DNA from: a bacterium
GTDB lineage: Bacteria; UBP15; UBA6099; DSWB01
Length of the DNA stretch: 5,502 nucleotides
NCBI GenBank assembly: GCA_020061125.1
Contig: JAGUYV010000079.1
Location: 1 to 5,502, forward strand
Direction: 5' to 3'
This document shows, piece after piece, positions 1-4,867 of the stretch. Both the position numbers and the translations under genes were made by a program. Every line of letters begins with the position of its first letter. Positions within the stretch are counted from its first letter, which is position 1. The notes beneath the pieces are model-generated. The model had not been told where the DNA came from and did not search any database. It saw nothing but the letters and a program-made list of their open reading frames with translations.

Positions 1-536
1 GAGGTTTTGCCGTCGAGCCGCGCGCAGCACACGATTTTGATCTTGTGCTTCACATGGTCGAAGATCAGAATGGCGTCCGTGAACACGAGGCACATGTCGG
101 GCAGGCGCAGGTCGTCTTTGGGCGCGCCGGGCAGGGCCTCGATGTGGCGCACCACATCGTAGCCCATGTAGCCCACGGCGCCGCCGATGAACGGGGGCAG
201 GCCTTCGGCGCCCGCAACCTTGAGGTCCTTGAACTCGCGGCGCAGGGCATCAAACGGATCGCCCTGTCCGGCCGCGCCGCCGATCTCGTACGCGCCGTCC
301 TTGCTTTTGAAAATCGCGCGCGGGTTCACCCCGAGGAACGAGTAGCGCGCGGTGCGCTCGCCGCCCTCCACGCTTTCCAGCAGGAAGCTATGCCCGCCGT
401 CCGCGGCCATGTTCATGTAGGCGCTCACCGGAGTCAGCAGGTCCGCCAGAACCTCGGTGTGCACCGGGATTACATTGCCCCGGGCCGCCAGCTTTTCAAA
501 TGTCTTGAAATCCGGAAATATCTGTTGAGCTTTCAT
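1..536 (-). CDS. trpE: Anthranilate synthase component I, N-terminal part (cut by window edge)
   Basis: TrpE with TrpG converts chorismate and glutamine (or ammonia) to anthranilate, the first committed step of tryptophan synthesis, in the cytoplasm. I translated 178 codons before the edge. Family signatures are FLLESVEGGERTARYSFLG at residues 51-69, whose LLES segment (52-55) matches the tryptophan feedback-binding region of known TrpE proteins, and GGAVGYMGYDVVRHIE at 118-133, typical of the N-terminal domain. The C-terminal chorismate-binding catalytic domain lies outside the window, so activity cannot be judged; full-length family members are about 490-520 residues. The ATG at 534-536 is preceded by AGGTGA (542-547) with a 5-base spacer, which fixes the start. 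It lies 190 bases downstream of rpe on the same strand, with a terminator between them. PabB and isochorismate synthases share the later domain, but the N-terminal motifs favour TrpE. Confidence 0.93.
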   Translation of the reverse strand, partial: MKAQQIFPDFKTFEKLAARGNVIPVHTEVLADLLTPVSAYMNMAADGGHSFLLESVEGGERTARYSFLGVNPRAIFKSKDGAYEIGGAAGQGDPFDALRREFKDLKVAGAEGLPPFIGGAVGYMGYDVVRHIEALPGAPKDDLRLPDMCLVFTDAILIFDHVKHKIKIVCCARLDGKT

Positions 537-559
537 TCGCGTCACCTGTTCATTCGTAA

Positions 560-726: not shown

Positions 727-1389
727 TCAGAGGCTGGCCTCCTTGAGCACTTTCACGGCTTTCTGAATCGTGTCTTCGCCCTTGAAGATGTAGGAGCCGG
801 CGACCAGGTAATCCGCGCCCGCGCCCACCACATCCCGCACCGTGCCGCGGGATACGCCGCCGTCCACGCCCACCAGGGCGCGCAGGCCGCGATTGTCAAT
901 CATTGTACGGCATTCCGCGATTTTGTCCAGCAACGGAATAAAATTCTGCCCGCCGAACCCCGGATTCACGGTCATGATCATGACCATCCACAGCTTGTCG
1001 AGCACATATTCGAGCACATTGAGAGGCGTGTGCGGGTTGAGGGCCACTCCGGGCTGTTTGCCGGCCTCGGCGATCTGCTGAATCACGCGGTCCAGGTGCG
1101 GGCAGGCCTCGGCGTGCACGGTGATGCTCTGCACCGCGTCCAGGGCGAACTCGGAGATGAACCGGCCGGGGTCGTGGATCATGAGATGCACATCCATGGG
1201 CAGGGGCGCGGACGGCGCGATGGAGTTCAGCACCACTTGGCCGAACGAGATGTTAGGCACGAACATGCCGTCCATGACATCCACATGCAGGGTGTCGCAT
1301 CCGGCGTCGCGCAGCGCGTTCATGTCCTGGCCCAGGCGCGTGAAATCCGCGCTAAGAATGGATGGGGAGATAATCAGTTGTTTGCTCAT
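727..1389 (-). CDS. rpe: Ribulose-phosphate 3-epimerase
   Basis: Interconverts D-ribulose 5-phosphate and D-xylulose 5-phosphate in the pentose phosphate (and Calvin) pathway; a cytosolic metal-dependent TIM barrel. The 220-residue product has the usual family length. It opens with SPSILSADF (8-16) and carries HVDVMDGMFVPN (35-46), DVHLMI (66-71), TVNPGFGGQ (140-148), VDGG (175-178) and AGSYIF near the C terminus. The expected metal and acid-base residues are all present: H35, D37, H68 and D176. I chose the ATG at 1389, which gives the canonical N terminus; the frame is open to 1467 but that extension overlaps the upstream gene and resembles nothing. The ribosome binding site is poor (CGGAAC just before the ATG), so translation may be coupled to the gene ending 22 bases upstream. 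Association of rpe with rsmB and a PASTA gene matches the ancestral cluster. Confidence 0.96.
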   Translation of the reverse strand: MSKQLIISPSILSADFTRLGQDMNALRDAGCDTLHVDVMDGMFVPNISFGQVVLNSIAPSAPLPMDVHLMIHDPGRFISEFALDAVQSITVHAEACPHLDRVIQQIAEAGKQPGVALNPHTPLNVLEYVLDKLWMVMIMTVNPGFGGQNFIPLLDKIAECRTMIDNRGLRALVGVDGGVSRGTVRDVVGAGADYLVAGSYIFKGEDTIQKAVKVLKEASL

Positions 1390-1411: not shown

Positions 1412-3406
1412 TCAGAACTTGACCTGCTGTTCGAGGCGTCCGTTGATGAAAACTTTGACGAACACATCGCCGCGGCCTTCGAGGGACAGGGGCACGGTTT
1501 CGCCGCCGTTGTGGCTGCCCCTGTAGGCCTCGCTGCGCCCGTTGCGGTCCACCACTTCGACCACGACCTCGCTTCCGTCCTGGGTCACGGTGACATTCAC
1601 ATTCTTCTTTTTGAGTTTGTAGTCCGCGGCGTTGTCCCCATCATAGAAGGGGTCGTCATCCGGAGACACGCCGCCGTTGTCCGCGCCGCCGTCCGCAGGC
1701 TCGGCCACAAAAATCTGCACATCGCCCATGGACTTGGTGTTGACCCTTGTGCCGGGCAGGATGCTCTGCGACACCACCACGCCGACCTCATAGGCGTTGG
1801 TGGGCACGGACTTGATGTCCCCGTACGGAATGCCGTTTTCCGCGAGGATGCGGTGCACATCGTTGATGTTCTTGCCGATGAGATCGGGCATGTCAATTTC
1901 ACGCGGCTCGGGGCCGTTGCTTACGAACAGCTTGATGAGCTTGCCGGTGCTGCTTTTCTCGCCGGGTTTGGGAACCTGGTCCACCACATGGTCCAGGGCC
2001 ACGCTTTCGCTGTACTCGCGCTCGATCTCCACGCGGAAGCCCATGTCCTTGGCGAGCTGTTCGGCCTCTCGCAGGGGCATCTTGCGCAGGTCGCGCACCA
2101 CAAGATCCTGGTCGCCCAGGCTCACGATGAGCTTCACCGTGCGGCCAACCTTGACTTTTTTGCCCGCGGGCGGATCCTGGCGGATCACCAGGCCCTCGGG
2201 CACATCCGCGCTGTATACCTTCTCGATCTCGGTCTTGAGATCGGCGTGTCCGAGCTTGAACTTGGCCTCGGTCTCGTCCAGGTTCACCACATTGGGGACC
2301 TGCACCACGCCCGACTCCCCGGTTCCGAGATTGTCCCGGATGCCGCCGCAGGAGCGGAACAGAAACCCGCCGATTCCGGCGAAGGTTGCTATTAGAATGG
2401 CCACTGCGGCGATGGCGAAAATCTGCCTTTTGCGGTACTGGCCTGTGTCCATGTCACCATCCAGATCAAGGGATTTCCCCAGGTCGTCCAGAGACAGATC
2501 GCGTTCTCTGGGCGGGGGAGGCGGCGGATCCGCCGCGCGCGCCGGTGGCGGGATTGACGGCTTGATCGCCATGCTCTGCTCCTGAAACCGTTCGCGGTTC
2601 AGAGACCGCACGATGGAGGAGCGGCACAGAAGCAGTTCGGAGAGCAGGTCGGACGCGGTTTCATATCGCGACGCCGGGCGCGGTTTGAGGGCCTTGAGGA
2701 TAACGGAGTTGAGAAGCGGCGGCACATGCGCGTTCAGATCCGCGGGCGCGGCGGGCGCTTCGTAGTTTCTGTCCAGGGCGATGTCCATGGCCTGTTCGGC
2801 GGTGAACGGCCTGTGCCCGGTCATGAGTTCATACAGAATGACGCCCAGGGAAAAGATGTCGGCCTGTGGCGAGGGGGCTGAACCGGAAAGAATTTCCGGC
2901 GCGCAGTAGCGCGCGTCGCGCGTGCCCGCGGGCGCCATGGCGTGCAGAATCTGGAAATCCGCGACCTTGACCGCCAGGGAGCCGAGCACGGCCACGGACT
3001 CCGTGGTGAGCAGCCCGTGGGCCACGCCTTTGCCGTGCGCGTGCGCCAGGGCCTCGGCAATTTTTATGCCCAGCTCCAGGGCCTGCAGGGTGTTCAGAGG
3101 CGAGCGCGACTTGAGCACCTGGGCCAGGGTGGCGCCCTCGTAATATTCCTCGGCCGCCCAGATCACGCCCTCATGCTCGCCGCAATCGCGCAGATGCGCC
3201 AGGCCCGGATGCCGCAGCGAGGATACCACGGCCAGGTTGGCTTTGAGCCTTTCGAACGCCTGTTCCGCGGCGGGGCCGGTGTTGAACACCTTGACCAGGC
3301 TGCGGGTTTCCGTGTTCACGAGCCGCGCCGCATACGCATCATAGAATCGTTGCTCGCGTATCTTTTCGATTAACTGGTATTTTCCGCCAATGGTCTGTCC
3401 GGTCAT
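1412..3406 (-). CDS. Membrane-anchored PASTA protein with degenerate Ser/Thr kinase domain (PrkC/PknB-like pseudokinase)
   Basis: A 664-residue protein with the layout of PASTA kinases: a cytoplasmic kinase fold (about 8-262), a proline-rich linker (285-300), one transmembrane helix (about 328-350), and three outer PASTA repeats (about 367-430, 435-498, 503-569). An acidic linker and a beta-rich C-terminal segment (598-664) follow that I do not recognise. PASTA domains in related proteins bind muropeptides or beta-lactams. The fold markers kept are K39 (beta3), D150 of DFG, APE (169-171), D183 of DIFSLG and R247. The catalytic loop is broken: HRDxKPEN is replaced by HGLLTTES (130-137), so the catalytic Asp, Lys and Asn are gone; DFG is DFQ, the Gly-rich loop reads IREQRFY (16-22), and the alpha-C Glu position appears to be Asn57. 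Phosphotransfer is therefore unlikely (inference). Start ATG at 3406 has GGGGAG (3415-3420) 8 bases upstream; a TTG ten codons earlier is less likely. It sits 78 bases after rsmB and 22 before rpe. Confidence 0.9.
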   Translation of the reverse strand: MTGQTIGGKYQLIEKIREQRFYDAYAARLVNTETRSLVKVFNTGPAAEQAFERLKANLAVVSSLRHPGLAHLRDCGEHEGVIWAAEEYYEGATLAQVLKSRSPLNTLQALELGIKIAEALAHAHGKGVAHGLLTTESVAVLGSLAVKVADFQILHAMAPAGTRDARYCAPEILSGSAPSPQADIFSLGVILYELMTGHRPFTAEQAMDIALDRNYEAPAAPADLNAHVPPLLNSVILKALKPRPASRYETASDLLSELLLCRSSIVRSLNRERFQEQSMAIKPSIPPPARAADPPPPPPRERDLSLDDLGKSLDLDGDMDTGQYRKRQIFAIAAVAILIATFAGIGGFLFRSCGGIRDNLGTGESGVVQVPNVVNLDETEAKFKLGHADLKTEIEKVYSADVPEGLVIRQDPPAGKKVKVGRTVKLIVSLGDQDLVVRDLRKMPLREAEQLAKDMGFRVEIEREYSESVALDHVVDQVPKPGEKSSTGKLIKLFVSNGPEPREIDMPDLIGKNINDVHRILAENGIPYGDIKSVPTNAYEVGVVVSQSILPGTRVNTKSMGDVQIFVAEPADGGADNGGVSPDDDPFYDGDNAADYKLKKKNVNVTVTQDGSEVVVEVVDRNGRSEAYRGSHNGGETVPLSLEGRGDVFVKVFINGRLEQQVKF

Positions 3407-3484: not shown

Positions 3485-4867
3485 TCACGATTTCCTGTCC
3501 AGAATGCACACCGCCGCGCCGCAGGCCTGGGTGTGCTGCGGCAAAAATACGCTGCCGAACGGCGTCTTGAATTGCGGCAGGTGTTCCAGGGCCGGTTCGT
3601 TGCGCGCCGGGGCGAAATCTTCGTGCCGCTCGAGGAATTCCGCGGCCACATCGTCGTTTTCCTCGGGCAGAACCGAGCAGGTGGCGTAGACCAGCCTGCC
3701 GCCGGGCGCAACCAGCCGCGCCGCGGCCTCGAGCATCCTGCGCTGCAGGAACGCCAGTTCCATGACCTGGGCGGGCCGCACGCGCTGCTTGAGTTCGGGC
3801 CTGCGCCGGAATGTGCCCGTGCCCGTGCACGGCGCGTCCACCAGAACCCGGTCGAATGAACCCATGTCCCCCGGATCCGTGGCGTCGCACACGCGGGTTT
3901 CCAGAATGGAAACGCCAAGCCGCTCCGCTTCCCCGGCCGCGATTTCGGTTTTGTGCGCATGGATGTCGCAGGCCAGCACGCGGCCGCGGTTGCCCATGAG
4001 TTCGGCCAGGTGCGTGGCTTTGGCGCCGCGGCCGCAGCACAGGTCCAGCACGCTGTCGCCCGGTTGCGGCGCGACTGCGTGCGCCACAATTTGCGTGCTG
4101 AAATCCTGTGGCGTGAGCAACCCGGCCCGCACCTCGCGCGCCGGGTGATAGCCCTGCCCCACCTTGAAATAGACGCAGTTGGGCAGGCGCTTCGAGAACG
4201 CCGTGTCCACGCGCTGCCGCGCGTACATGTCCGACAGCTCATCTTCGCTCACGCGCAGCGGGTTTGTGCGGAAATATGACGGCATGCCCAGATTGTTGGC
4301 CCGCAGCATCTTGAGGGTGTCGTCCATGCCGTAGAATTTCACGGCGCTCTGCGCAAACCATTCCGGGCACGAGAATTCCAGGGCCATTCGCCGGAGATCG
4401 GTTTCCGCATCTTCGAGAAGACTGTGCATGTCTTTGTGTGAGACGCGCCGCAGGCAGGCGTTGAGAAATTTCGTCTCGCTTTTGCTGCACTCCGCGGCCG
4501 CGATCTTCATGTATTCGGAAATGGTTGCGTATTTGGGAATTTTGTTCTGGAACAGGATTTCGAAGATGGCCATGCGCGCGGCCAGGAGCAGAGCGGGCGC
4601 GGCCGTGATTTTGCCCTTGCTGGTTTTGGAGCGGAACACGGCGTCGAGCAGGGCGAGGTTGCGCAGCACGCCCAGGACCAGGAAGGTGGCTGTGCGGCGG
4701 TCGCCGGGCGCCAGGGATGCGTCGTCGAGCGCGTTGCCCAGCACGATGTTGCTGAACGCCCCGCCGTGCAGCACGCGATGCAGCGCGCGGTACGCCGTGA
4801 TGCGCCCCCTGTACCCGCCCGCGGCCGTGGCCTGTTCTTTTGTTTTTGTTTGCTTTTTGTTTTGCAT
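3485..4867 (-). CDS. rsmB: 16S rRNA (cytosine-967-C5)-methyltransferase RsmB
   Basis: Transfers a methyl group from SAM to C5 of C967 (E. coli numbering) in 16S rRNA during small-subunit assembly. The 460-residue product has an N-terminal NusB-like RNA-binding domain (about 18-150) and a C-terminal Rossmann methyltransferase (about 165-458). SAM motif I is VLDLCCGRGAKATHLAEL (273-290), an acidic ribose contact is D301, motif IV is DAPCTGTG (344-351), and motif VI is YATCS (394-398). Both cysteines of the m5C mechanism are present: C397 as nucleophile and C347 for product release. Motif I departs from the usual DLCAAPGGKT. I chose the ATG at 4867 because the 30 residues before it, from a TTG at 4957, read into repeat DNA and look non-conserved. 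Its ribosome binding site is weak (AGGG abuts the ATG). NSUN/RsmF-type enzymes lack the NusB-like domain, which supports RsmB (also called Sun). Confidence 0.93.
   Translation of the reverse strand: MQNKKQTKTKEQATAAGGYRGRITAYRALHRVLHGGAFSNIVLGNALDDASLAPGDRRTATFLVLGVLRNLALLDAVFRSKTSKGKITAAPALLLAARMAIFEILFQNKIPKYATISEYMKIAAAECSKSETKFLNACLRRVSHKDMHSLLEDAETDLRRMALEFSCPEWFAQSAVKFYGMDDTLKMLRANNLGMPSYFRTNPLRVSEDELSDMYARQRVDTAFSKRLPNCVYFKVGQGYHPAREVRAGLLTPQDFSTQIVAHAVAPQPGDSVLDLCCGRGAKATHLAELMGNRGRVLACDIHAHKTEIAAGEAERLGVSILETRVCDATDPGDMGSFDRVLVDAPCTGTGTFRRRPELKQRVRPAQVMELAFLQRRMLEAAARLVAPGGRLVYATCSVLPEENDDVAAEFLERHEDFAPARNEPALEHLPQFKTPFGSVFLPQHTQACGAAVCILDRKS

Follow-up and report, generated by a model that had tools for sequence, protein, structure and literature searches.

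A PASTA pseudokinase gene between rsmB and rpe

The window, by which we mean the whole stretch of 5,502 nucleotides that was analysed, comes from a draft genome that is 79% complete. Its features are as follows.

3485..4867, minus strand: rsmB, 16S rRNA methyltransferase, upstream neighbour (Pfam and NCBIfam)
1412..3406, minus strand: PASTA pseudokinase gene, 664 aa; ATG start with the ribosome-binding site GGGGAG upstream; the start matches the orthologues
2597..3406, minus strand: pseudokinase domain, residues 1-270; Pfam PF00069 3.8e-23; AF2 pLDDT 87.6, pTM 0.87; best PDB match PknA 4ow8, Z 31.1
3332..3364, minus strand: degenerate glycine loop KIREQRFYDAY, residues 15-25, no glycine (alignment)
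3290..3292, minus strand: beta-3 Lys39, kept; invariant in four orthologues
3236..3238, minus strand: Asn57 at the alpha-C Glu position (alignment)
2996..3019, minus strand: HGLLTTES for HRDxKPEN, residues 130-137 (phmmer and alignment)
2951..2959, minus strand: DFQ for DFG, residues 150-152, Asp150 kept (alignment)
2357..2422, minus strand: predicted transmembrane helix, about residues 329-350, a hydrophobic stretch after RKR read from the sequence; a proline-rich juxtamembrane linker precedes it
1415..2308, minus strand: three PASTA repeats and C-terminal domain, residues 367-664; homologues among both active PASTA kinases and kinase-less PASTA proteins
727..1389, minus strand: rpe, ribulose-phosphate 3-epimerase, downstream neighbour (TIGR01163 3.9e-77)
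3..545, minus strand: 5' part of trpE, truncated by the contig end (Pfam Anth_synt_I_N)

The frame of the central gene is intact over 664 codons, as the original prediction had it, running from the ATG at 3406 to the stop at 1412. Its product has the complete PrkC/PknB layout that had been claimed for it, with kinase fold, linker, transmembrane helix and PASTA repeats all identified by Pfam and the NCBIfam profile NF033483. The kinase region matches Pfam Pkinase at 3.8e-23 and 82.7 bits, three PASTA domains match PF03793 at 3.3e-38, and NF033483 gives 299.6 bits over residues 3-565, which is far below its curated cut-off of 450. The PASTA repeats follow the single transmembrane helix in the predicted topology. 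Since residues 1-270 form a kinase fold according to Pfam and AF2, the protein differs from the kinase-less type that consists of a transmembrane helix and three PASTA repeats.

An AF2 model of the kinase domain reached a pLDDT of 87.6 and a pTM of 0.87 with an alignment of 17 rows (the query, 15 kinases from viral contigs and one Actinomadura record); a model built from the single sequence (pLDDT 37) was discarded. By Foldseek and VIA-align, the nearest structure was M. tuberculosis PknA (4ow8, Z 31.1, rmsd 2.1 over 257 residues), and further structural neighbours were PknB (Z up to 29.7) and S. aureus Stk1/PknB. Every row of the AF2 alignment after the first is a different kinase, and the majority have intact motifs; what the model indicates is that the sequence suits a kinase fold, and it carries little information on the pocket. 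Searching genome contigs with the window protein returned a single match, a distant Actinomadura kinase, and searching viral contigs with the orthologue profile returned none.

The active site is dismantled

In a phmmer alignment to StkP the catalytic loop aligns without gaps and reads HGLLTTES (bases 3019-2996) in place of HRDLKPQN, with L132 at the position of the catalytic Asp and S137 at that of the metal-binding Asn, while DFG becomes DFQ (bases 2959-2951). Alignment with nine active PASTA kinases likewise placed S137 at the metal-binding Asn, gave N57 in place of the alpha-C Glu, and showed a glycine loop that reads IREQRFYDAY, with no glycine, for IGxGGMAxVY. The original prediction had listed losses in the catalytic loop, DFG, the glycine loop and the alpha-C Glu, and all four were borne out. 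The glycine positions of the loop carry the bulky residues R17, Q19 and Y22, and R17, Y22, D23 and Y25 of this segment are invariant across the clade. No alternative Asp at the HRD position appeared in the alignments with active PASTA kinases. The activation segment of the window protein is 7 residues shorter than in its orthologues.

K39, D150, APE (169-171), D183 and R247 are kept and are invariant in all four orthologues (the window protein included), and H130 and F151 are also invariant in the clade. The first five had been described as structural residues that remain; their retention stands, but the label does not fit K39 and D150, which are the ATP-binding and the metal-binding residue. 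H130, F151 and D183 stand where kinases have the regulatory spine and its anchor. Among the three catalytic residues, then, beta-3 Lys39 and DFG-Asp150 are present and the HRD-Asp is replaced by Leu132, so that two of three are kept. A bacterial Ser/Thr pseudokinase is defined as a kinase fold without at least one of beta-3 Lys, HRD-Asp and DFG-Asp (PMC12599244); here the kinase fold is present and the HRD-Asp is missing in all four orthologues. As the losses are common to independent assemblies, they are due neither to assembly error nor to chance. The domain is almost certainly a pseudokinase domain without canonical protein-kinase activity.

A remodelled pocket could nevertheless serve another chemistry (AMPylation, glutamylation or atypical phosphorylation), in the manner of SelO, SidJ or E. 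coli YegI, the last of which is reportedly an enzyme despite non-canonical kinase motifs. SelO/YdiU, an AMPylating pseudokinase with the motifs Hgvmntdn and DYG, shows a resemblance: its catalytic loop also starts with HG and is similar to HGLLTTES, and Lys and DFG-Asp are kept in both (Table 1 of PMC12599244). However, SelO retains the terminal Asn of this loop, which is Ser137 here and Ser in all four orthologues, and SelO has no membrane or PASTA part. D150 is the only acidic residue in the cleft motifs that is invariant across the four orthologues, and the overall similarity is to PknA/PknB and not to SelO. We consider it very unlikely that the domain is such an enzyme.

Orthologues share the losses

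Orthologues were found in G001, G002 and G006, which come from two further families within its order; the phylum sample comprises seven species, all of one order. Every frame is intact. G001 reads HGLLTPES and DFY, G002 and G006 read HGQFSPRS and DFF, and both the HRD-Asp and the glycine loop are absent in all three. Conservation is highest in the kinase-fold domain, which has 52% (G001) and 45% (G002 and G006) identity to that of the window protein, against whole-protein values of 39% and 35%; the linker sequence varies between orthologues and shows no conservation. In the sole close pair, G002 and G006 (the window protein itself has no close relative), dN/dS was 0.064 for the pseudokinase domain, 0.16 for linker plus transmembrane helix and 0.013 for the PASTA part. 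In an unrelated pseudokinase lineage the values were 0.11 and 0.09. None of the four orthologues has an intact HRD, a frameshift or a replacement Asp, findings that the original prediction had named as speaking against it.

Because the losses are common to three orthologues in two other families and dN/dS is low, the sequences indicate that the pseudokinase state is kept by selection and is not decay. The claim of a folded pseudokinase under selection is thereby upheld by the shared losses, by dN/dS in one pair and by the confident PknA/PknB-like predicted fold. One could still picture a decaying former kinase on its way to a kinase-less PASTA form, with a pseudokinase domain of little function, as kinase-less forms are very common at the same locus and very degenerate ones are known in G252 and G116 (see below). 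But no part of the protein is better conserved than this domain, its dN/dS lies far below 1, all four genomes have an intact frame and the fold prediction is good, and we find such decay extremely unlikely. The pseudokinase gene, rsmB and rpe are jointly missing from three of the seven phylum genomes (G003, G004 and G005), possibly through block loss or a shared assembly gap.

The pseudokinase gene has a prkC-like position

The gene order rsmB-X-rpe, where X is the pseudokinase gene, is common to the window, G002 and G006, and fmt precedes rsmB in the latter two; G001 has X-rpe, and its rsmB lies on a separate contig. In Firmicutes, the prpC-prkC-cpgA operon (B. subtilis) has rpe as a neighbour (PMC6449344). 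The Firmicutes-like G058 has an intact kinase in the order priA-def-fmt-rsmB-rlmN-stp-prkC-rsgA-rpe, G201 has the same gene set, and G082 has rlmN, a stp-like match, an intact PASTA kinase and rpe. In the window rsmB and rpe flank the pseudokinase gene, with no rlmN, stp or rsgA present; a tblastn search with a single Stp sequence as query detected no stp-like gene at the pseudokinase loci examined. By the shared rsmB/rpe position X is probably a positional orthologue of prkC that has no phosphatase gene beside it. The window protein resembles PrkC/PknB/StkP (NF033483) in the order of its parts, in the full-length profile match and in its rsmB and rpe neighbours, and differs from them in having no catalytic base, second metal ligand, glycine loop or alpha-C Glu and no stp at the locus.

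The same slot in other lineages

In a survey of 386 genomes spread over bacteria, in which the flanks of the matches were read, the slot was found in four states: an active PASTA kinase, a PASTA pseudokinase, a split PASTA protein and pseudokinase, or a kinase-less protein with a transmembrane helix and three PASTA repeats. PASTA pseudokinases occupy it in at least three further phylum-level lineages (L115, L114, L173, L117, L146), with different residues lost. G021, G168 and G307, which are all three sampled species of their phylum, read HGHLVPGN and DFS in the order rlmN-X-rpe. G010 and G158 (X-rpe) read HGDVGPHN or HGDVSARA, with Lys changed to Arg and the DFG-Asp lost. G252 and G116, from one phylum with four sampled species, read HGFLNFRN/DYP and HNCLLPTN/DCG and adjoin fmt; their kinase homology comes from HHalign alone (about 95%), as Pfam gives no kinase match. 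In G125 (L163:3669-6149), rlmN, a PASTA protein, a separate transmembrane pseudokinase (YRTIKLSN, SFT) and rpe stand in a row; sensor and kinase are here on two adjacent genes, and the kinase part is dead.

The kinase-less proteins are about 310-410 aa long (234 aa in G028). Of the kinase-less loci whose flanks were read, approximately two dozen have the gene directly beside rpe or one gene off, often with rsmB or fmt on the opposite side; the loci read were the best matches, so that this share is a biased count. They have the same ectodomain as the window protein, including the C-terminal domain, at the same locus, and differ from it by having no kinase-fold domain.

PASTA proteins of another kind, with a cytoplasmic N-terminal domain of 150-260 aa for which HHalign does not support kinase homology, occur at L149, L150, L152 and L094, L152 being located at the rsmB-rlmN locus. 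The N-termini of the PASTA proteins in G052/G327 and in G025/G172 resembled kinase N-lobe remnants on inspection, a reading that profile comparison did not support (probabilities of 3% and 0.6%).

The window clade, G021, G252 and G116 have lost the catalytic base; G010/G158 keep the base and have lost Lys and the DFG-Asp, and G125 has lost both Asp. Because the lost residues differ between lineages, the sequences favour independent losses of catalysis. In the kinase tree the window clade is supported at 100/99, its nearest outside rows are PASTA kinases and the deeper branching is weakly supported. Support in the PASTA tree is 98/88 for the window clade and 97/92 for a large kinase-less clade, and this tree requires several state changes. 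The other pseudokinases sit on very long branches, so the trees leave the number of catalytic losses undecided. The occurrence of active, dead, split and kinase-less forms at one locus nevertheless means that the PASTA ectodomain has recurrently been kept without catalysis, and the kinase-less proteins at the slot in many lineages imply that the PASTA part works without kinase activity.

The combination of a kept beta-3 Lys and DFG-Asp with a lost HRD-Asp is found by alignment in G021/G168/G307, G252 and G116 as well. Together with the invariance of K39 and D150 in the window clade though the catalytic base is gone, this pattern would suit a nucleotide-binding switch, in which ATP or ADP would be held via K39 and D150 without phosphate transfer and occupancy would alter dimerisation or partner binding. 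But R17, Q19 and Y22 at the glycine positions, Asn for the alpha-C Glu and Ser for the metal-binding Asn are unfavourable for ATP-Mg, and the Lys and Asp may be retained just for the fold. A switch of this kind is, in our judgement, unlikely.

Other kinases in the genome and its relatives

A small kinase-like protein (HGDIRNDH, DFD) is encoded in the source genome of the window at L003:1120-2169 (G000 contig C76), adjoining a prephenate-dehydrogenase-like gene. In G001, L044:6031-7947 (contig C6) encodes a further pseudokinase (HGAVVPRK, DGC), unrelated to the first and joined to a membrane domain, beside a sugar-transferase-like gene. The source genome also holds, at L002:1450-1878 (G000 contig C236), the start of a kinase with an intact glycine loop and the motif HRDIKPG, cut by the contig end, which is a possible active partner.

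Such kinases bear on a further explanation, in which the pseudokinase would be the target of a signal relay: a separate active Hanks kinase would phosphorylate the juxtamembrane linker, and an FHA-type partner would be recruited, as for MviN. The HRDIKPG kinase start in its own genome fits this, as does the HRDLKPEN kinase of G001, which has a PP2C gene on the same contig, and MviN is a known precedent (PMC12599244). In G006 (88% complete), however, no Hanks-type kinase besides the pseudokinase was found, which argues against a relay as a general rule, and the linker varies between orthologues. We regard the relay as distinctly unlikely.

A candidate peptidoglycan-sensing scaffold

The protein is probably a catalytically dead, PrkC-derived, non-catalytic peptidoglycan-sensing scaffold, the scaffold role being one that we infer. 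The original prediction had likewise proposed a ligand-sensing scaffold in place of a signalling enzyme; this part of it is less well supported than the pseudokinase itself, since K39 and D150 are retained and a nucleotide-binding switch or an unusual transferase keeps some probability. It would have arisen from a PrkC-type PASTA kinase that lost catalysis and kept its position between rsmB and rpe. One helix would cross the membrane. The predicted topology would put the C-terminal domain and all three PASTA repeats outside it, and their most likely ligands, by analogy with PknB and PrkC, are peptidoglycan fragments or precursors. Muropeptide binding is a property of PASTA domains, which are also sufficient for PknB localisation (PMC6428115). 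The cytoplasmic kinase-fold domain would act as a docking or dimerisation module whose partners are not phosphorylated, making contact perhaps as in EssB/YukC, or perhaps through a phosphorylated docking site as in the MviN pseudokinase domain (PMC12599244).

We count in favour of a scaffold the shared losses, purifying selection in one pair, the kinase fold, the rsmB-rpe locus, the missing stp and the kinase-less forms. Against it we count the beta-3 Lys and DFG-Asp present in all four orthologues, which are dispensable for a pure scaffold, the existence of enzymes without canonical motifs (SelO, SidJ; PMC12599244), and the three of seven phylum genomes without the gene, where it is either dispensable or was missed by the assemblies. 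Because in the relatives at the same position the kinase is dead or its domain is gone altogether, the data suggest that the cell-wall-sensing half has a task independent of phosphorylation.

Other bacterial pseudokinases offer partial parallels to such a scaffold. EssB/YukC of type VII secretion is likewise a transmembrane pseudokinase and acts as scaffold and dimer (PMC12599244), but its motifs are Ytfvlapd and TRG, its role is in secretion and it has no PASTA domains. MviN (MurJ) of Mycobacterium tuberculosis, of the ActPs3 family, is also a bacterial pseudokinase tied to cell wall and membrane (PMC12599244). Unlike the window protein it is a transmembrane peptidoglycan-synthesis protein without PASTA domains; all three of its motifs are degraded (VALT for VAIK, no HRD or DFG) and its activation loop is deleted, whereas K39, D150 and APE are kept throughout the window clade. 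The conserved bacterial pseudokinase families described in a 2025 review are ActPs1-3, GLW, CP1, DYD and DLHK, besides single cases (PMC12599244). A PASTA pseudokinase group is missing from these families, and the word PASTA occurs in that review in one reference title only. Literature searches, with most subscription papers outside their scope, found no description of a PASTA pseudokinase; within the same scope they found nothing relevant on a PASTA protein with rsmB/rpe or on kinase loss in PASTA kinases, which is weak evidence of absence.

PASTA kinases appear in textbooks as sensors of the cell wall and are drug targets related to antibiotics; phosphorylation is taken for granted as their output. 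We tentatively put forward, as a real possibility, that the prkC slot of the def-fmt-rsmB-rpe locus holds a widespread peptidoglycan-sensing system whose commonest form is not a kinase, that catalysis was lost repeatedly (or gained once), and that in many phyla PASTA pseudokinases and kinase-less PASTA proteins are functionally equivalent to each other. If this is true, PASTA signalling outside Gram-positives would work by protein contact and not by phosphorylation. The PASTA pseudokinases add a group to the bacterial pseudokinase families of the review cited above (PMC12599244). Their recurrence beside kinase-less versions, at the same locus and in several phyla, uncouples sensing from kinase function and offers a natural experiment on the PASTA part acting alone.
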